A DNA stretch of 32,607 bases from an uncultured Clostridia bacterium. Its GTDB lineage: Bacteria > Bacillota > Clostridia > Oscillospirales > Ruminococcaceae. The notes under the pieces are model-generated. The model was not told the origin of the DNA, did not search any database, and saw only the letters and a program-made list of their open reading frames with translations. Made by a program: the position numbers and the translations under genes. The stretch lies in contig CAMERU010000006.1 in assembly GCA_945935925.1 (NCBI GenBank), positions 1 through 32,607 of the forward strand. Direction: 5' to 3'. Position 1 is the stretch's first letter, and each line of letters opens with the position of its first letter. Shown piece after piece: positions 228 to 19,337 of the stretch.

Positions 228-1754
228 ATGAAAACATTCAAGAGAATAGCTGCCTGCACACTTGCGGCTGCTATGGTAGCAGGAATGACCGCCTGCGTCG
301 ACGAGGGTCAGCCCATCGCTTCCGGCAGCGGCAATGCTCCCGTTGCCAACACAACCACAACACAGGACTCAACCACCACCGACCCCGACGAGAATGCCGC
401 GACCGATAAGGACATCAAGGAAGTCGGCACCGATACATTTACCCCCAGCGGAAACGCAGGCAAGGTAACCTTCCTCAACTTCTACAAGATAGAAGAGGAC
501 CAGAAGGGCGTTGAGCAGAGCCTTATCTTCAAGGGCGAGCAGTACGGCGGCGACATTGAATACATAATCTGCGCCAGCGGCGACGCTTACCTCGAGAAGT
601 TCAGCCAGCTCATTTCTTCCGATGAATCCCCCGACCTTGTTACAAAGGACGTTTTCCTTTACCCCGGAAGCGTTTCCAAGAACCTTTTCGAACCGCTTGA
701 CAACGATATCGATATGAATTCTCCCCTGTGGGCGGATATGGCGGACGTTATCGAATCCTACGCATATCAGGGCAAGCACTATTACTACCCCCACAGAATA
801 ACCACCTCTTTCGCCCTCAACTACTCCAAGAAAACCATCGAGGAGAACGGTCTGCCCGATCCGTATGAGCTGTATAAGAACGGCGAGTGGACATGGGACG
901 CATGGCGCAACATGATGATCGAGTTCTGCGACAAGGCTGACGGCAACGTAGGCTACTACACCACCGACACGATCATCACCTCCCTTATCGCGACCACGGG
1001 CACAACGCTCATCGACACCAAAGCCGACGGCACTATCCTCAACAACATCGGCGACGCAAACGTAACAAGAGCGATGAACTTCTATGAAACGCTCTACCGC
1101 GACGGCGTTGCCTACGGCTCCAAGTACGAGAAGCAGTGGGGCGACTGGGTTCCCCCGCAGACCTTTGCGGATCACTGCGACCAGCTCCTGTTCTTAGGCA
1201 TGGAGCCCGAGTGGACTTACACCGCAGCTACCGAGCAGATCCAGAACAAGACCGGCGTTGAGAACGATATCCTTGACACCGTTTCCGATTTCGCGTTCGT
1301 TCCGTACCCCAGAGATGTTGACGCGGACGATTATTATCAGGCATACGACACCTATGGATTCCTTGTTCCCAGAGGCGCAAAGAACAAGAGCGGCGCTGTT
1401 GAATTCATCAACTGCTTCAGAGTTTACGATACAGACGAGGCTATCGCTGCACAGGTTCGCGAGGATCACGTTAACCCCGCTCCCATTACCTACCAGACCG
1501 GTAAGTACGAGGGTCAGCGCAAGTGGGTAATCAAGTGGGGCGAGCAGGAGTACGATATGTGGAGAGAGATGTGCGATCCCTCTAAGTTCAACTTCGTGAC
1601 CGAGGACGCATTCGGCTTCAACTCCGACTTCTGGACTTCCTATGCCGAGGTTCTCACAGGCGTTGCACTGAGCGGCGAGAGCTGGGCACAGAAGAGCTCC
1701 GAGTTCATGCCTATCGTAGAGGCTGTCGTTAACGAGTACCGCTTCTCCGAATAA
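228..1754 (+). CDS. Extracellular solute-binding lipoprotein (family 1, ABC sugar transporter type)
   Basis: Signal peptide and lipobox (MKTFKRIAACTLAAAMVAGMTAC); AAGGAGG RBS upstream; SBP-like body. Confidence 0.85.
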   Translation: MKTFKRIAACTLAAAMVAGMTACVDEGQPIASGSGNAPVANTTTTQDSTTTDPDENAATDKDIKEVGTDTFTPSGNAGKVTFLNFYKIEEDQKGVEQSLIFKGEQYGGDIEYIICASGDAYLEKFSQLISSDESPDLVTKDVFLYPGSVSKNLFEPLDNDIDMNSPLWADMADVIESYAYQGKHYYYPHRITTSFALNYSKKTIEENGLPDPYELYKNGEWTWDAWRNMMIEFCDKADGNVGYYTTDTIITSLIATTGTTLIDTKADGTILNNIGDANVTRAMNFYETLYRDGVAYGSKYEKQWGDWVPPQTFADHCDQLLFLGMEPEWTYTAATEQIQNKTGVENDILDTVSDFAFVPYPRDVDADDYYQAYDTYGFLVPRGAKNKSGAVEFINCFRVYDTDEAIAAQVREDHVNPAPITYQTGKYEGQRKWVIKWGEQEYDMWREMCDPSKFNFVTEDAFGFNSDFWTSYAEVLTGVALSGESWAQKSSEFMPIVEAVVNEYRFSE

Positions 1755-1775
1755 TAAGGCGAGTTAAGCTGTCCT

Positions 1776-1805
1776 GCCCTCCCGAGAGCTTCGGGAGGGC
1801 ATTTT
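1776..1805 (+). terminator. Intrinsic terminator after the solute-binding protein
   Basis: GCCCTCCCGA-GAGCT-TCGGGAGGGC followed by ATTTTT. Confidence 0.9.
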
Positions 1806-1818
1806 TATGCTGATCATG

Positions 1819-1847
1819 TTGACATAACGGCGCGGGTATAGTATAAT
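1819..1847 (+). promoter_or_regulatory. Consensus promoter TTGACA-N17-TATAAT for the GH5 pair
   Basis: Exact consensus hexamers with 17-nt spacing upstream of the first GH5 gene. Confidence 0.8.
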
Positions 1848-1893
1848 GAACACATAGCCGCATTGGGCGGCGGAAAATATCATGGGAGAAATT

Positions 1894-3102
1894 ATGAAAC
1901 TGAAAAAAATCATTTCGTCAGTAATGGCAGCGGTATGCTGCGCGGCAATGCTTACGGGCTGCTCCGGCGGGAGCGGCACATCGTCGACCGACGTTCAGAG
2001 CGGAGCGGACGGCGCTTCCGACGCGGCTTCGGAAACGGTTCAGTCGGAAACGGCGTCAGCTGTGAACGACCCGATCGATACCGAGCTCACCCCGCTTGAG
2101 TTCACATCGGGCATACGCATCGGCTGGAACATAGGAAATACGCTGGACGCTACCGGCGGCAGCGGGCTTTCCACCGAAACAAGCTGGGGCAACCCCAAGG
2201 TCACGGAGGAGCATATCCTCTCGGTCAAGGAGCAGGGCTTCAATGCCGTGCGTGTTCCCACGACATGGGACAATCACATGGACGAAAACCACAACATTGA
2301 CCCCGAATGGATGGCGCGCGTTACCGAGGTAGTGGATTACGCCTACAACGCAGGAATGTATGTCATTCTGAATATGCACCACGAGAGCTGGAATTACCCT
2401 TATGAGGACAATTTCGAGGCGGCTTCGGAGATAATGACGGCGGCATGGACGCAGATAGCGGATAATTTCGCGGGATACAGCGAGAAGCTTATTTTTGAGG
2501 GCATGAACGAGCCGCGCTGGGTCGGCACCGATCAGGAATGGAGCGGCGGAAACGACGAGGGCAGAAGTGTTGTCAACAAATTAAATCAGGTGTTCGTCGA
2601 CACCGTTCGCGCGACGGGCGGCAACAACGCGGAACGCTTCCTCATGGTTTGCCCCTATGCGGCGAACTCGGGCGAGCCCGCAATGTCCGCGCTGGTGCTC
2701 CCGAACGATCCCGCAGAAAGGCTCATCGTTTCGGTTCACGCATACATACCGTACAGCTTTGCGCTTCAGGTCGGCGGCTCGAAAAACTGGCTCGCGGAAA
2801 AGCAGACCTGCACCCGAGATATCGACACTCTCGCCGAGGCGCTTGACAGGCTCTTTATAAGCAAGGGCACGGCGGTCATCATCGGCGAATGCGGCGCAAT
2901 GAGCAAGGACAACGAGGAAGCGCGCTGCGCATGGGCGGAATACTTCTTCGGCACGTTCAGCAAGCTAGGCGTACCCTGTTTCCTCTGGGACAACGGAGCG
3001 TTCGTCAGCGGAGAAACATTCGGTCTTTATGACCGTCGTGTAAACACATGGAGATACCCCGACCTTATGGCTTCCATCATGAAAGGAGCGGACGAGGAAT
3101 GA
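1894..3102 (+). CDS. GH5 glycoside hydrolase (endoglucanase-like), lipoprotein
   Basis: Lipobox MLTGCSGG; GH5 signatures GWNIGNTLDATGG, FEGMNEPRW and IIGECGA. ATG at 1894 has GGAG spacing; 1882 is an alternative start. Confidence 0.88.
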   Translation: MKLKKIISSVMAAVCCAAMLTGCSGGSGTSSTDVQSGADGASDAASETVQSETASAVNDPIDTELTPLEFTSGIRIGWNIGNTLDATGGSGLSTETSWGNPKVTEEHILSVKEQGFNAVRVPTTWDNHMDENHNIDPEWMARVTEVVDYAYNAGMYVILNMHHESWNYPYEDNFEAASEIMTAAWTQIADNFAGYSEKLIFEGMNEPRWVGTDQEWSGGNDEGRSVVNKLNQVFVDTVRATGGNNAERFLMVCPYAANSGEPAMSALVLPNDPAERLIVSVHAYIPYSFALQVGGSKNWLAEKQTCTRDIDTLAEALDRLFISKGTAVIIGECGAMSKDNEEARCAWAEYFFGTFSKLGVPCFLWDNGAFVSGETFGLYDRRVNTWRYPDLMASIMKGADEE

Positions 3103-4229
3103 GCATAGCGGCGCGCCTTATGGCGGTGTTGACCGCGCTGACGACTGTTATAAGCGGCGGCGGAGAACTCCGAAAGCCGACAACTCCCGAGCCGCCCGCG
3201 GCGGAGGAGTGGCTCAGCCCGACGGAGCTCTGCGAGGAGATCGTGATAGGCTGGAACCTAGGAAACACGCTTGACGCAACGGGCGGCAGCGGGCTTTCCT
3301 CCGAAACGAGCTGGGGCAACCCGAAAGCTGCCGAGGAGCTTATCCTTGCGGTAAAGGAAGCGGGCTTCAATGCGGTGAGAATACCCACGACGTGGTATAA
3401 TCACTGCTCGGGCAGCGAATACACGATAGACAGCGAGTGGCTGGACAGGGTGCAGGAGGTCGTTGACTACGCCTATGACAACGATTTGTATGTAATCCTG
3501 AACGCTCACCATGAAAACTTCAATTTCCCGTCGGACGAAAATTACCCCAAGGCGAAAAAGGCGCTGACGTGTATCTGGAAGCAGGTCGCGGAGCGGTTCG
3601 CGGACTACGGCGAACGCCTTATATTCGAGGGGCAGAACGAGCCGCGCAAGGTCGGCACGAATGTGGAATGGAACGGCGGCGACTACGAGGGCAGGAAAAA
3701 TGTCAACAAGCTCAACGCGGATTTCGTTGCGACGGTGCGCGCGACGGGCGGCAACAACGAAAAGCGCTGCCTTATGGTACCGACCTATGCGGCGGCGTTC
3801 TATGCGCTGGACGGGTTCGAGCTTCCCGACGATGACAGGCTGATCGTGTCGATACACGCATATTCGCCCTACAATTTCGCAATGAACACGGGCAATTGGG
3901 CGACGGATAATTTTGACCCCAACGACAGCAACAGCACGAGCGAGCTTGTGACCATGGCGGACACGCTGTATGACAGGTTCGTTTCAAAGGGCGTTGGCGT
4001 TATCATAGGCGAATGCGGCGCGACTAACAAGGGCAACGCGGCGCAGCGCCTCAACTGGGCGAAATACTTCCCCGCCTGCTTCGGCAAAAAGGGGATACCC
4101 GTTTTCCTTTGGGATAACCACGCCTTCGGCACGGGCGGCGAGAAGTTCGGGCTTATCAACCGTTATTCCCTTACATGGGAGTACCCCGACTACATCAAGG
4201 CTCTTGTAAACAGTGCTAAGAAGGCGTAA
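3099..4229 (+). CDS. GH5 glycoside hydrolase (endoglucanase-like), secreted paralogue
   Basis: ATGA overlap with the upstream GH5; GWNLGNTLDATGG, FEGQNEPRK and IIGECGA motifs; N-terminal signal-like segment without a clear lipobox. Confidence 0.87.
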   Translation: MSIAARLMAVLTALTTVISGGGELRKPTTPEPPAAEEWLSPTELCEEIVIGWNLGNTLDATGGSGLSSETSWGNPKAAEELILAVKEAGFNAVRIPTTWYNHCSGSEYTIDSEWLDRVQEVVDYAYDNDLYVILNAHHENFNFPSDENYPKAKKALTCIWKQVAERFADYGERLIFEGQNEPRKVGTNVEWNGGDYEGRKNVNKLNADFVATVRATGGNNEKRCLMVPTYAAAFYALDGFELPDDDRLIVSIHAYSPYNFAMNTGNWATDNFDPNDSNSTSELVTMADTLYDRFVSKGVGVIIGECGATNKGNAAQRLNWAKYFPACFGKKGIPVFLWDNHAFGTGGEKFGLINRYSLTWEYPDYIKALVNSAKKA

Positions 4230-4266
4230 GCAGCCGTATTCAACCGTATGCTTAACGGAATATTTT

Positions 4267-4304
4267 GTCCCCGCGGGGTATTGTGCCTCGGCGGGGACAT
4301 TTTT
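4267..4304 (+). terminator. Intrinsic terminator after the GH5 pair
   Basis: GTCCCCGC...GCGGGGAC followed by ATTTTTT. Confidence 0.85.
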
Positions 4305-4317
4305 TATGTGACGCAAA

Positions 4318-4364
4318 AAACTTGTTTATACCCCCTTGACAACACAAGAAACTTGTGATATAAT
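4318..4364 (+). promoter_or_regulatory. Consensus promoter with an operator-like palindrome in the spacer, upstream of the DUF1492/XRE/ImmA cassette
   Basis: TTGACA 4336-4341, TATAAT 4359-4364, 17-nt spacer containing CACAAG-AAA-CTTGTG (4343-4357). An extra AAACTTGT at 4318-4325 repeats 4349-4356. Confidence 0.85.
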
Positions 4365-4408
4365 CTGTTCATAATGATGAGATGAGATGAACGGAAAGGA
4401 GGGATCCC

Positions 4409-4924
4409 ATGTCGGAGTGTCTTGAATGTCTGAAAAGAGCGCGCGAATACGAGAAGGAGGTTTCCGCAATGGTGACCGAGGTAGAGCGGCTGCACAGGAT
4501 AATGAAGCTTGGGCGGTCGTCGCAGGCGCGCGCAGAGCAGCTGACGACAAAGCTGTATAAATATGAACAGGAACTCAACGCGCAGATAGACCGCACTGTT
4601 GACGCAAAGCGGGAAGCGCTGGAATATTTAAGCCTGCTGAGCGGCGAGGAGCGCGGCGTTATGTTCAGATATTACATACTGGCGATGGAGTGGCAGGAGA
4701 TAGCGATGAAGATGTTTATGAGCGAGCGGCGGGTGTTTTTGCTGAGGAAGAGCGCGCTTGCGAAGCTGGACAAGTATTACGGCGGGAGGGATAACGATGC
4801 CGATAGGAACGAAAATAAAAAAGCTGCGCGAGCGTGCGGGGCTGACCCGGGAGGAGCTTGCGCAGCGGATAGGAGTCACTGCCTCGGCGGTGGGGAATTA
4901 CGAGAGCGACCGTTCGCACCCTAA
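4409..4924 (+). CDS. DUF1492 / sigma-70 region-4-like (phage/ICE-type) regulatory protein
   Basis: GGAGG RBS; coiled-coil N-terminus; helix-turn-helix-like LLSGEERGVMFRYYILAMEWQEIAMKMFMSERRVFLLRKSALAKL. The last ~43 codons run out of frame into the XRE gene. Confidence 0.65.
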   Translation: MSECLECLKRAREYEKEVSAMVTEVERLHRIMKLGRSSQARAEQLTTKLYKYEQELNAQIDRTVDAKREALEYLSLLSGEERGVMFRYYILAMEWQEIAMKMFMSERRVFLLRKSALAKLDKYYGGRDNDADRNENKKAARACGADPGGACAADRSHCLGGGELRERPFAP

Positions 4925-5222
4925 GGAGGAGGTCATGTACAGGCTTTTCGGAGCGCTGAACTGCGAGCCGAACGAGCTTTTCGAGGAATATTTCGACGCG
5001 GGCAGCTCGTCGGTGCGGCGGCACATGGAGAAATACGTCGCGCTTGACGCGCACGGGCGGGAGCTTGTGGATATGTGCACGGAGATAGAATACCGCCGCT
5101 GCATTCCCGCGGAGGACGACATGGTGCTCATTGCGGCGAGAAACGGCGGCGCTCCGCACAAGGTGCACATGAAAAAGCGCGGCACGGCGAGCATACTTGA
5201 TATGCCCGACTACAAGGGATAA
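4797..5222 (+). CDS. XRE-family helix-turn-helix transcriptional regulator
   Basis: MPIGTKIKKLRERAGLTREELAQRIGVTASAVGNYESDRSHP; GGGAGGG RBS just upstream. Confidence 0.88.
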   Translation: MPIGTKIKKLRERAGLTREELAQRIGVTASAVGNYESDRSHPKEEVMYRLFGALNCEPNELFEEYFDAGSSSVRRHMEKYVALDAHGRELVDMCTEIEYRRCIPAEDDMVLIAARNGGAPHKVHMKKRGTASILDMPDYKG

Positions 5223-5272
5223 GGCGGTAATGCGGTGATCGGGCAAGGCGATAATGAGGCAAGGAGGGGCAA

Positions 5273-5902
5273 ATGAATGCGCTTGACGTTCTTCACAGGG
5301 CGGGAATAAGGCGGCTCCCGACCGACACCGAAGCGATAGCCGAGCATTTCGGCATTAAGCTGGTGAGCTACTCGTCGGTGGCTAGGATATACGAGCGGGA
5401 CATGGCGGAGCTGTACAGGATAAGCCGTCAGGGGTACAGCTTTGTTGTTGACGGGCGCTATGTCTGCGCAATAAACGAGAACAGCTGCGGCGAAACGCGG
5501 CGCCGCTGGACGATAGCGCACGAACTGTCGCATTGTCTGCTGGGTCACATCAGGGACGGCAGGCTTTGCTGCACGCCCGAGGAGGAGCGCGCGGCGGATC
5601 GTTTCGCGGCGGAGCTGCTGGCGCCGCTTGCGGTGGTGAATTTCTGCGGCGTTACCTCCGCAGAGGAGCTTATGCGGCTTTGCAGGCTGTCGCGTAAGGC
5701 GGCGGAGATACGCTTCGGGCAGCTGGACGCGCGGCGCAGGGAAGCGGCGCGCAGCAGATTTTCCGAGGCTCGGACGCAGGCGCTGTCGGCTGCCGAGCTA
5801 AAGACCGTTTCCGACTTCTCTTTTTTCATCACGGAGTATATCTTTAACAAAAAAGGCGGCTGCTCCGTATTGTCGGGCGGAGCGGTCAGGGCGTTGCCGT
5901 GA
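5273..5902 (+). CDS. ImmA/IrrE-family metallo-endopeptidase
   Basis: HExxH motif in RRRWTIAHELSHCLLGHI followed by EERAADRFAAELLAP; GGAGG RBS. Confidence 0.88.
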   Translation: MNALDVLHRAGIRRLPTDTEAIAEHFGIKLVSYSSVARIYERDMAELYRISRQGYSFVVDGRYVCAINENSCGETRRRWTIAHELSHCLLGHIRDGRLCCTPEEERAADRFAAELLAPLAVVNFCGVTSAEELMRLCRLSRKAAEIRFGQLDARRREAARSRFSEARTQALSAAELKTVSDFSFFITEYIFNKKGGCSVLSGGAVRALP

Positions 5903-5960
5903 ACGTCGGCATTATGTCATGGTTTGCGGAATATTCCCGCTGTTAATGCAGCGAAAAACA

Positions 5961-5992
5961 AATCACCCTCCCGGCTGCCCGAGAGGGTGATT
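5961..5992. terminator. Bidirectional terminator between ImmA (+) and GH130 (-)
   Basis: AATCACCCTC...GAGGGTGATT 10-bp stem; the T-rich tail (TTTGTTTTT) lies on the minus strand. Confidence 0.8.
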
Positions 5993-6015
5993 CCTATATG
6001 CCCGATAATTCGTTA

Positions 6016-7029
6016 TCAGAAATATTTGTTGGAGTGAGCCTTAACGTACTCAACAACTTCCTCAGCGTAGCAGAACGCCATGCTTACGCAGGTATCCGCG
6101 CAGCCGTAGTAGATCGCGATACGACCGGTGTCCTTGTCGCAGAGAGCCGCGCAGGGGAAGGTAACGTTCTGAACGTCGCCGACTGTTTCGTAGATCTCGC
6201 GGGGGTTGATGAGGTACTCGCGGCAGCGGTACTTAACCTTCCAGGGCTGCTCCTTGTCGAGAATGCAGGCGCCGAAGCTGTAAACGAAGCCGTTGCAGCT
6301 CTCGAGAACGCCGTGGTAGAATACCAGCCAGCCCTCGCTCGTTTCGATCGGGATAGGACCTGCGCCGATCTTCTTGGATTCCCAGCCTCTGTCGGGAGCC
6401 ATAACGTGTCTGTGCTTGCCCCAGTATTTCATGTCGGGGGAGTGGGACAGGTACATATCGCCGAAGGGAGTATGACCGCTGTCGGAAGGACGGGAGAACA
6501 TAACGAACTCGCCGTTTATCTTGCGGGGGAACAGAACGCCGTTTCTGTTAAAGGGCAGGAACGCGTTTTCTTCCTGATGGAATTCCTTGAAATCCTTTGT
6601 CCAGCCGATGCCGATAGTGGGCTTCCAGCCGTAAGCGTTGCACCATGTGATCCAGAATCTGTCCTCGATCCATACGCAGCGGGGGTCGTAGCCGTACTGC
6701 CACGGATTAGCCTCGGCAGTGAGCGGGTCGTCGTTTATCCATTCAACCTTCTTCTCGTTTATTTCCCAGTGGATACCGTCAACGGAGAAGCCGGCATGGA
6801 TAGCCATGTTTCTTTCCTTGTCGTCAACACGGAAAACACCTGCGAAGTGGTGACCGTTGCCGTCCTCAAAGGGAACGACTGCGGAGTTGAAGATGGAGTT
6901 GCTTGTGGGGAGCAGGTCGCGGGGGATAATGGGGTTAGCGTTGTAGCGCCAGATTACGTCCTTGCAGCCCTCGGGACGATCCTGCCACGGGATATTGGGA
7001 ATGCTCTGTCCGATGATTTCTAAGCTCAT
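6016..7029 (-). CDS. GH130-family glycoside phosphorylase (manno-oligosaccharide or mannosylglucose phosphorylase-like)
   Basis: [45 protein letters not shown] and [29 protein letters not shown] before ATG at 7029. Confidence 0.85.
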
Positions 7030-7092
7030 GACTTTACCTCTCAAATAATTTTTTTACTGTTACGATCGGGAGCAGTCCACGCCCCGACCAAC

Positions 7093-17024: not shown

Positions 17025-17166
17025 ATTTATACCGCTCCCATGGCAATTCAAGGGCGCAGGGCTTCCGCATTAAACTGAGCTCCCGCAGACGCGGCGGCTG
17101 ACTTTTTTGCTGAAAGACGCTGTGCCTTTGAACACTTATTTTATCTTATGAAAGGAAAAACGAACT

Positions 17167-19299
17167 ATGTTTGAGAATTACAGAGTGTTCAAGACCATGT
17201 TTGCAGGCAGAGAGCTTACCGTAGAAACGGGTAAGGTCTGCGGCCTTGCGAACGGCTCCTGCTGGGTAAGATACGGCGAGAGCGTCGTTATGGTTAACGT
17301 TACCGCGAGCGCAAAGCCCCGCGACGGCGTTGATTTCTTCCCGCTTTCCGTTGATTACGAGGAAAGACTTTATTCCGTGGGCAAGATCCCCGGCGGCTTC
17401 CTCAAGAGAGAGGGCAGACCCTCCGAAAAGGCTATTCTCACCTCCCGCGTGGTTGACCGCCCCATGCGGCCGCTGTTCCCGAAGGATATGCGCAACGACG
17501 TTGCTATCACCATGACGGTGCTTGCTGTCGACCCCGACGCTTCCCCCGAGATCCTCGGCATGATAGGCGCGTCCATTGCGGTGTCTATCTCCGATATTCC
17601 GTGGAACGGTCCTATCGGCGGCATAAGCGTAGGTCTTGTTGACGGCGAGATCGTCCTCATGCCTACACTTGAGCAGCGCGCAAAGACCGACCTCACGCTG
17701 ACCGTTGCTTCTTCGGAGAAGAAGGTCGTAATGATCGAAGCGGGCGCGAACGAAGTCCCCGACGACGTTATGTTCAACGCTATCATGGCAGGTCACGAGG
17801 AGATCACAAAGTCCCTTATCCCGTTCATTAAGGACATTCAGGCTCAGATAGGCAAGCCCAAGTTTGCTTTCGAGAGTCAGGAAGTCGATCACGATATGTT
17901 CGAGGCTATCTCCGATTTCGCTATCGAAAAGGTGAGATACGCAATGGACACCGACGACAAGAATATCCGCGACGAGCGCCTCCAGCCCATTTACGAGGAG
18001 GTTCACGCGAAGTTCGACGAGGTTTACCCCGACAATATCCCCATGATAGAGGAGTGCCTGTACAAGCTTCAGAAGTTTGTTGTACGCCGCTGGCTGCTTG
18101 ACGACGGCAAGCGCGTTGACGGCAGAACGCTCGACCAGATACGCCCGCTCGCTGCCGAGGTAGGCTTCCTGCCCCGTGTACACGGCTGCGGTCTGTTCAC
18201 AAGAGGTCAGACGCAGGTCATGACGGTCTGCACGCTCGGCCCCGTAAGCGACTCTCAGAAGCTTGAGGGCCTTGACGAGGAAGAGGGCAAGCGCTATATG
18301 CACCACTACAACTTCCCCGCCTACTCCGTCGGCGAAACAAAGGCGTCCCGCGGCCCCGGCAGACGTGAGATAGGTCACGGCGCGCTTGCCGAGAGAGCGC
18401 TGGTTCCCGTTATCCCCTCCGTTGAGGAGTTCCCCTATGCTATCCGCCTTGTTTCCGAGGTTCTGTCCTCCAACGGCTCCACCTCTCAGGGCTCTATCTG
18501 CGGCTCCACTCTCGCGCTGATGGACGCGGGCGTTCCGATAAAGAAGCCCGTTGCCGGCATTTCCTGCGGTCTTGTTACCGAGGGTGAGCGCTGGATGACA
18601 ATGGTTGATATTCAGGGCGTTGAGGACTTCTTCGGCGATATGGACTTCAAGGTTGCGGGTACTCACGATGGTATCACGGCTATCCAGATGGACCTCAAGA
18701 TCGACGGTCTTACTCCCGAGATAATAAAGAACGCGTTCGAAAAGACGCACAAGGCGCGCGACTATATCCTTGACGAGGTAATGCTCAAGGCTATCGCAGA
18801 GCCGCGCAAGGAAGTCGGCAAGTACGCTCCCAAAATGCTCACCACAAAGGTTCCGCAGGACAAGATCCGCGAGGTCATCGGTACGGGCGGAAAGGTCATT
18901 CAGAAGCTCTGCGCAGACTTCGAGGTCAAGATCGACATCGACGACGACGGCAACGTATTCATCTGCGGTCTGGATATGGAAAAGGCAAAGGCTTGCGTTC
19001 AGGTTATCCACACCATCGTAAACCCGCCGGAGATCGGCGCAATTTACAAGGGCAAGGTTGTACGCATCATGAACTTTGGCGCGTTCGTTGAGATCGCCCC
19101 CGGCAAGGACGGCATGGTGCATATCTCCAAGCTGGAGAACAGGCGCGTTGATAAGGTTGAGGACGTTGTTTCCATCGGTGACGAAATCATCGTCAAGGTT
19201 ATGGAGATCGACTCTCAGGGTCGTATCAACCTCTCCCGCAAGGACGCTCTCGCAGATATCGAGGCAAAGAAGAAGGCTGCCGCGCAGAACAACGGCTAA
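17167..19299 (+). CDS. pnp: Polyribonucleotide nucleotidyltransferase (PNPase)
   Basis: 710 aa; RNase PH domains plus C-terminal KH (IREVIGTGGKVIQKL) and S1 (GAIYKGKVVRIMNFGAFVEI). Confidence 0.98.
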   Translation: MFENYRVFKTMFAGRELTVETGKVCGLANGSCWVRYGESVVMVNVTASAKPRDGVDFFPLSVDYEERLYSVGKIPGGFLKREGRPSEKAILTSRVVDRPMRPLFPKDMRNDVAITMTVLAVDPDASPEILGMIGASIAVSISDIPWNGPIGGISVGLVDGEIVLMPTLEQRAKTDLTLTVASSEKKVVMIEAGANEVPDDVMFNAIMAGHEEITKSLIPFIKDIQAQIGKPKFAFESQEVDHDMFEAISDFAIEKVRYAMDTDDKNIRDERLQPIYEEVHAKFDEVYPDNIPMIEECLYKLQKFVVRRWLLDDGKRVDGRTLDQIRPLAAEVGFLPRVHGCGLFTRGQTQVMTVCTLGPVSDSQKLEGLDEEEGKRYMHHYNFPAYSVGETKASRGPGRREIGHGALAERALVPVIPSVEEFPYAIRLVSEVLSSNGSTSQGSICGSTLALMDAGVPIKKPVAGISCGLVTEGERWMTMVDIQGVEDFFGDMDFKVAGTHDGITAIQMDLKIDGLTPEIIKNAFEKTHKARDYILDEVMLKAIAEPRKEVGKYAPKMLTTKVPQDKIREVIGTGGKVIQKLCADFEVKIDIDDDGNVFICGLDMEKAKACVQVIHTIVNPPEIGAIYKGKVVRIMNFGAFVEIAPGKDGMVHISKLENRRVDKVEDVVSIGDEIIVKVMEIDSQGRINLSRKDALADIEAKKKAAAQNNG

Positions 19300-19337
19300 G
19301 TCAACACCGCACAAAGATTGTGCGAATATTGCCATAA
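19297..19337. repeat. Short degenerate relic of the TTAA element at the pnp stop codon
   Basis: TAAGTCAACACCGCACAA-AGA-TTGTGCGAATATTGCCATAA resembles the two element ends joined. Confidence 0.5.

Follow-up and report, generated by a model that had tools for sequence, protein, structure and literature searches.

A conserved XRE–M78 protease cassette with a sigma-like gene and its probable place in a DNA-damage regulon of gut Clostridia with no detectable LexA

The window, meaning the whole stretch of DNA analysed here, spans the complete contig C6, 32,607 bases in length, from an assembly of 207 contigs, and the view stops at the contig ends. It contains a cassette of three genes on the plus strand: gene A (4409-4924), encoding a sigma-region-4/DUF1492-like protein; gene B (4797-5222), encoding an XRE repressor with the HTH at residues 1-62; and gene C (5273-5902), encoding an M78 (ImmA/IrrE/CapP) metalloprotease with the motif HELSH at 5519-5533. 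The genes are preceded on the same strand by a sigma-A type promoter (TTGACA-17-TATAAT, 4336-4364), which matches the consensus at 12/12 positions, possesses an extended TG and is the only perfect promoter in the 3.5 kb scanned. Two symmetric elements, neither belonging to one strand, overlie this region: an operator-like palindrome, CACAAG-AAA-CTTGTG (4343-4357), in the spacer between the -35 and the -10, and a damage-box-like inverted repeat, GTTCAT-N14-ATGAAC (4367-4392), over the transcription start, the position of which was deduced from the -10.

The cassette is surrounded by genes for a solute-binding protein, two GH5 enzymes and a GH130 mannooligosaccharide phosphorylase (228-7044), likely a mannan-use cluster. 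Upstream, a stable hairpin (4266-4299, -25.8 kcal/mol, z -4.9) followed by a T run on the plus strand forms the intrinsic terminator of the GH5 gene (4266-4306, plus strand), which insulates the cassette. Downstream, a second hairpin (5961-5992, z -5, assigned to neither strand) separates gene C from the GH130 gene, which runs towards it; with its T tail on the minus strand, this hairpin mainly ends the GH130 gene. Rfam gave no match within the window. A preliminary description of this DNA had listed the promoter, the three genes in one direction, a first terminator at 4267-4304 and the GH5 and GH130 neighbours, all of which were confirmed, each of the three genes having Pfam or fold support. 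It had also closed the cassette with a second terminator at 5961-5992, where the hairpin is real but belongs mainly to the neighbor. Elsewhere in the window, the minus strand encodes a 729-residue protein (17146-19335) that has no Pfam match at 1e-5, and an equally long plus-strand ORF overlaps it.

The product of gene A (P0001) alone gave no Pfam match at E≤1, and after trimming it matched only Sigma70_r4, below threshold. Among its relatives, DUF1492 was matched in 16/28 and sigma region 4, weakly, in 20/28. The AF2 model (pLDDT 91.7) consists of a two-helix N-terminal arm and a sigma region 4-like HTH, and structure comparison revealed that it resembles phage DUF1492 proteins, with a TM of 0.64-0.77 and an E of about 1e-5. 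By its predicted fold, where the support is clear, and more weakly by its sequence, the gene A product is of the DUF1492 type. The conserved part of the gene stops at about 4798, and the remainder overlaps gene B out of frame. This 128-nt run into gene B arises because the usual stop is absent in the genome of the window, and the open frame over 4799-4924 may be either natural or an assembly error; in most relatives, gene A stops near the start of gene B or slightly overlaps it.

The product of gene B matches HTH_3 (Pfam, E 3e-15) and ends in a conserved C-terminal tail, in which an AAR at residues 113-115 (window 5133-5141) is invariant. The AAR tail persists even in shortened B proteins of 97 residues, from which the linker helices are missing, and modelling suggests, with modest confidence, that it forms a beta hairpin. 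The tail is a candidate site at which the protease might recognize or cleave B; for comparison, the tail of ImmR is cut at F95-M96 (PMC8960796). The product of gene C matches Peptidase_M78 with 39.5 bits against a cut-off of 22 (Pfam), its residues H83, E84, H87 and E105 are invariant in 30/30 sequences, and its best solved relative is CapP (7t5t). B and C are therefore adjacent XRE and M78 proteins with an intact HExxH, the composition of an XRE-M78 switch.

The promoter arrangement is common to 33 distinct promoters of the genus described below. The spacer palindrome ACAAG-N3-CTTGT is present with at most one mismatch in 32/33 of them, at a fixed offset of 8-9 nt from where the -35 begins. 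Its exact form occurs eight times in the genome of the window, and the other seven copies lie inside ORFs; moreover, no genome of the genus holds more than one instance of the combined pattern of promoter and palindrome. As the site has no other non-coding exact copy in the genome, it is probably the own operator of B. This also bears on the earlier suggestion that the cassette controls the neighboring glycan genes, which we reject because the neighbors differ by subclade and a second non-coding exact copy of the site is absent. The promoter pattern had seven matches in viral sequences, none with gene A and one with a generic XRE match; we do not take these as real cassettes, the count being roughly at chance level for so large a collection.

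The cassette is widespread within one uncultured Oscillospiraceae genus, where gene C has one intact homologue, of about 44-55% identity, in 32/37 genomes. A remnant is found in G026, and the gene was not detected in G003, G014, G029 and G033. The order A-B-C is identical in all 28 loci with three readable genes, two further loci (L008 and L027) being cut by contig ends. In a second collection, the gene A query retrieved 33 loci, and the triad is complete in 32; all come from Oscillospiraceae, Ruminococcaceae or Clostridia MAGs, with herbivore guts as a common source. Outside the genus, C-like proteins occur in 29 genomes among 394 of the order; gene A was found at none of the 27 such loci inspected, and the collections searched gave no three-gene set outside the genus. 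The cassette genes are under purifying selection (dN/dS 0.05-0.22), and their distances track those of a second conserved XRE-ImmA pair, XRE2-ImmA2 (Mantel r 0.82, 0/2000 permutations). The neighbors, which in relatives include by eye whiA, rapZ, tyrS and a sulfhydrylase, vary among subclades and are fixed within them. On this comparative evidence, the cassette is an old, vertically inherited core operon of its host genus. It is not essential, as the 98% complete genome G014 has no detected cassette.

The second element, GTTCA-N14..17-TGAAC, begins 0-2 nt after the -10 and has at most one mismatch in 30/33 promoters, compared to at least three mismatches in 32/33 for the reversed motif used as control. 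Across 43 genomes of the genus, the pattern GTTCAYN{12,15}RTGAAC has 156 sites, versus 33 for the reversed pattern, and the strict pattern had no match in the viral collection. In the genome of the window there are exactly four exact boxes of the form GTTCAY-N12..15-RTGAAC, each just upstream of a gene: the A-B-C operon, the XRE2-ImmA2 pair (contig C102), uvrB (C16, identified by NCBIfam) and a gene for an SPL-like radical-SAM protein (C165). A scan allowing one mismatch over about 56% of this genome revealed no other convincing repair target, nor was recA located.

We examined 102 distinct box sites across the genus, which are those among the matches listed and not a random sample. Long ORFs contain 50 of them, promoters of six families account for 39, and the remaining 13 are elsewhere. 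The 39 promoter sites belong to genes for Y-family polymerase (13), uvrB (10), the SPL-like protein (8), the A-B-C operon (4), a SLOG-type protein (3) and XRE2 (1). The box overlaps the -10 at uvrB and XRE2 promoters, and starts right after the -10 at those of the triad, the polymerase and, in some cases, the SPL-like gene; either placement would be suitable for a repressor. We also considered that the repeat might act as an RNA hairpin. In the genome of the window, the repeat is predicted to fold barely more stably than shuffled sequences (z -1.0), and this weak fold, together with the overlap with the -10 at uvrB and XRE2, fits a DNA operator better. A box shared by the promoters of repair genes and of XRE2 is, as far as sequence can tell, the arrangement of a DdrO/IrrE-type regulon.

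The triad itself is an unlikely regulator of the box. Two genomes with no detected triad, G014 and the 69% complete G003, retain boxes at XRE2 or uvrB, which indicates that the triad would be a target of the box rather than its regulator.

We found no credible LexA match in the 43 genomes of the genus. The LexA DNA-binding model gave marginal matches in 11/43, but six of these ORFs, read by eye, are GntR- or MarR-type. The full LexA model has no match in the own genome of the window. Order-wide, it scores above cut-off in 130/197 genomes, among them members of three further genera of the same family; in a sister genus, which also seems to be without LexA, four of five genomes gave no match. 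The genus thus appears, from these profile searches, to be devoid of LexA. By contrast, XRE2, whose gene lies with that of ImmA2 beside an argG-like gene (L001, 366-1279, contig C102), was detected in 41/43 genomes, and ImmA2, like C, matches CapP in PADLOC. A weak M78 match on contig C2 was set aside, being by eye an oligopeptidase F-like gene. We consider XRE2-ImmA2 a candidate replacement for LexA. The role of DdrO as a regulator was likewise first proposed in part from the presence of the motif at the ddrO gene itself (PMC5552922). The box at the XRE2 promoter is exact in 9/30 loci, degraded in about 12 more and not recognisable in about 8-9, and the 92% complete genome G017 has boxes but no detected XRE2, so that another protein may bind the box.

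These findings provide insights into how the cassette might work, which probably is as a core host operon that forms a protease-controlled repressor switch within a LexA-less DNA-damage regulon. In other bacteria, single-stranded DNA activates the M78 proteases IrrE/PprI and CapP, leading to cleavage of DdrO and CapH (PMC10904395, PMC13373217), and on this known behaviour we base a damage-activated double-protease model. We propose that at rest B would occupy ACAAG-N3-CTTGT between the -35 and the -10, and a second repressor, for which XRE2 is the best candidate, would occupy GTTCAY-N12..15-RTGAAC at the start site. DNA damage, probably sensed via single-stranded DNA, would activate both M78 proteases, C and ImmA2, each of which would then cleave its partner repressor, B or XRE2. 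Once the repressors are gone, uvrB, the Y-family polymerase, the SPL-like radical SAM gene and the cassette could be transcribed, and newly made B and C would reset the switch. The gene A product would be the output, redirecting RNA polymerase to other targets. The pairing of proteins with boxes, the damage signal, the cleavage and the role of A are what we infer by analogy from these systems.

A bolder version of this model, which we put forward more tentatively, holds that LexA has been lost in the genus and that its SOS-type response is run by two nested XRE-M78 pairs. XRE2-ImmA2 would act through a previously undescribed box on the repair genes, and the triad would be a doubly locked second tier, with a sigma-like product that would redirect RNA polymerase once damage has occurred. 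A literature search, with most subscription journals outside its coverage, returned no LexA-less SOS-type regulon in these bacteria and no function for the triad.

The strongest competitor is an old domestication with a solely local loop, in which B and C, as an autoregulated module, would do no more than set the level of A for some process other than damage (for instance envelope, development or prophage control) and the GTTCA box belongs to a general regulator. Such a loop would suit the exact site of B, with its lack of another non-coding copy in the genome, and it gains from the regulator of the GTTCA box being a candidate only and from the role of A being putative. Nevertheless, once the operon and the switch pair are set aside, nearly all the boxed promoters are those of repair genes, and DNA damage is what known XRE-M78 pairs respond to (PMC10904395, PMC10233336), so that we regard the local loop as unlikely compared to the damage-controlled operon.

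Less probable still is a stranded prophage or ICE module, in which XRE-ImmA would switch lysogeny or transfer and A would be a late or excision activator. Gene A shares the fold of phage DUF1492 proteins, XRE-ImmA pairs govern ICEs such as ICEBs1 (PMC8960796), and relatives of gene C that lack A are patchy in other families and also occur in viral contigs. Against this, the cassette is a single-copy core of its genus, with purifying selection and subclade-fixed neighbors. Moreover, searches with three integrase queries (phmmer), which recover known integrases as a positive control, revealed no integrase in the window or, at 32 loci, within flanking DNA of up to 10 kb; among the matches listed, the sole integrase on the same contig is about 15 kb off, in G007. 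There are also no relatives with the cassette inside an intact prophage or ICE, and on this evidence the cassette is neither a prophage nor an ICE fragment.

One viral copy of gene A merits separate description. The MAG SIG524 carries a chromosomal triad plus a second gene A in a phage region (L088, 9875-10375), where it sits between a tail gene and holin-like and amidase-like genes; the IMG/VR contig L099 (9875-10375) has the same phage region. In the tree, the phage gene clusters with the gene A on its own host's chromosome, to which it is 65% identical. As it nests beside that copy within the chromosomal clade, the transfer was probably from host to phage, which speaks against a phage origin. 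Under the two-tier version, this capture, kept beside lysis genes, would underline the value of the gene A product. The links of the GTTCA box to uvrB, the polymerase, the SPL-like gene and XRE2-ImmA2, together with the lack of a detectable LexA, favour a cellular response to DNA damage over a lysogeny switch. The earlier reading of a stand-alone, domesticated XRE-ImmA switch with no mobile element thus holds, given its core status in the genus and integrase-free flanks; the part of that reading that falls is the control of glycan genes, and it had overlooked the GTTCA box and the apparent absence of LexA.

An anti-phage defence regulator, of the kind CapH/CapP forms ahead of CBASS, is highly improbable, for although PADLOC matches C to CapP and B to CapH, gene A has no PADLOC match, and no defence operon is seen downstream, where the GH130 gene converges and the neighbors vary across the genus.

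M78-XRE pairs are usually encountered in mobile elements or defence islands, where they act as switches; the well-studied example of a pair that controls the cell's own repair genes is that of Deinococcus. By predicted membership, the cassette holds an XRE-M78 pair distinct from the Deinococcus system, from ICE and prophage switches and from CapH/CapP proper. Phage control of the PBSX Xre/Xpf type combines, as here, an XRE repressor with a sigma-region-4-like positive factor; in contrast, the window shows no phage structural genes, and the cassette adds a protease and a damage-type box. The LexA SOS regulon resembles the predicted one in its targets, uvrB and Y-family polymerase, and in operators placed over promoters. 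However, LexA was not found here, and compared to the Gram-positive LexA box, GAAC-N4-GTTC, the present box has the order GTTC..GAAC and a long spacing. ImmR/ImmA of ICEBs1 is likewise an XRE-ImmA pair, whereas the cassette is a genus core with a different predicted operator and with no integrase, excisionase or transfer genes.

By mode of action, the closest systems would be DdrO/IrrE and CapH/CapP. The former, DdrO/IrrE (PprI) of Deinococcus, also consists of a chromosomal XRE repressor and an M78 protease, with a palindrome at repair promoters including uvrB and at the own promoter of the repressor (PMC5552922). It differs in belonging to another phylum, and the 24-27 bp box here, GTTCAY-N12..15-RTGAAC, is set apart by its form from the 17-bp RDRM. 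In addition, the cassette has adjacent repressor and protease genes, an added sigma-like gene, a second private operator and an apparent absence of LexA. CapH/CapP shares the side-by-side arrangement of a short XRE and an M78 protein, and CapP is activated by single-stranded DNA; it governs an adjacent immune operon, whereas here the cargo is sigma-like and upstream, and no immune genes are seen.

Control of repair genes by an XRE-M78 pair seems to have arisen independently in gut Clostridia that apparently lost LexA, with a new operator. The predicted regulon is compact, comprising uvrB, the Y-family polymerase and the SPL-like and SLOG genes, and it is accompanied by a sigma-like effector that would be doubly locked. 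If confirmed, it would represent a second route to the replacement of LexA, suggest a testable function for many of the XRE-ImmA pairs that stand alone in gut genomes, and partly explain how these gut Clostridia may answer DNA damage. The boxes, the genes and the predicted cleavage pairs are defined enough for direct testing.

Several further features of the boxed promoters were observed. In several genomes, a single promoter carries two damage-type boxes in tandem, at the Y-family polymerase (L142, L249, L254 and L262) or at XRE2 (L173 and L176). The SLOG-type protein, with a box in its promoter in three genomes (L213, 1506-1994; L135; L134), resembles DUF1273 by eye and has a partial PADLOC match to ShosA. 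Finally, a boxed gene in G031 (L253, 861-1523) encodes, by eye, a non-canonical NTP pyrophosphatase.
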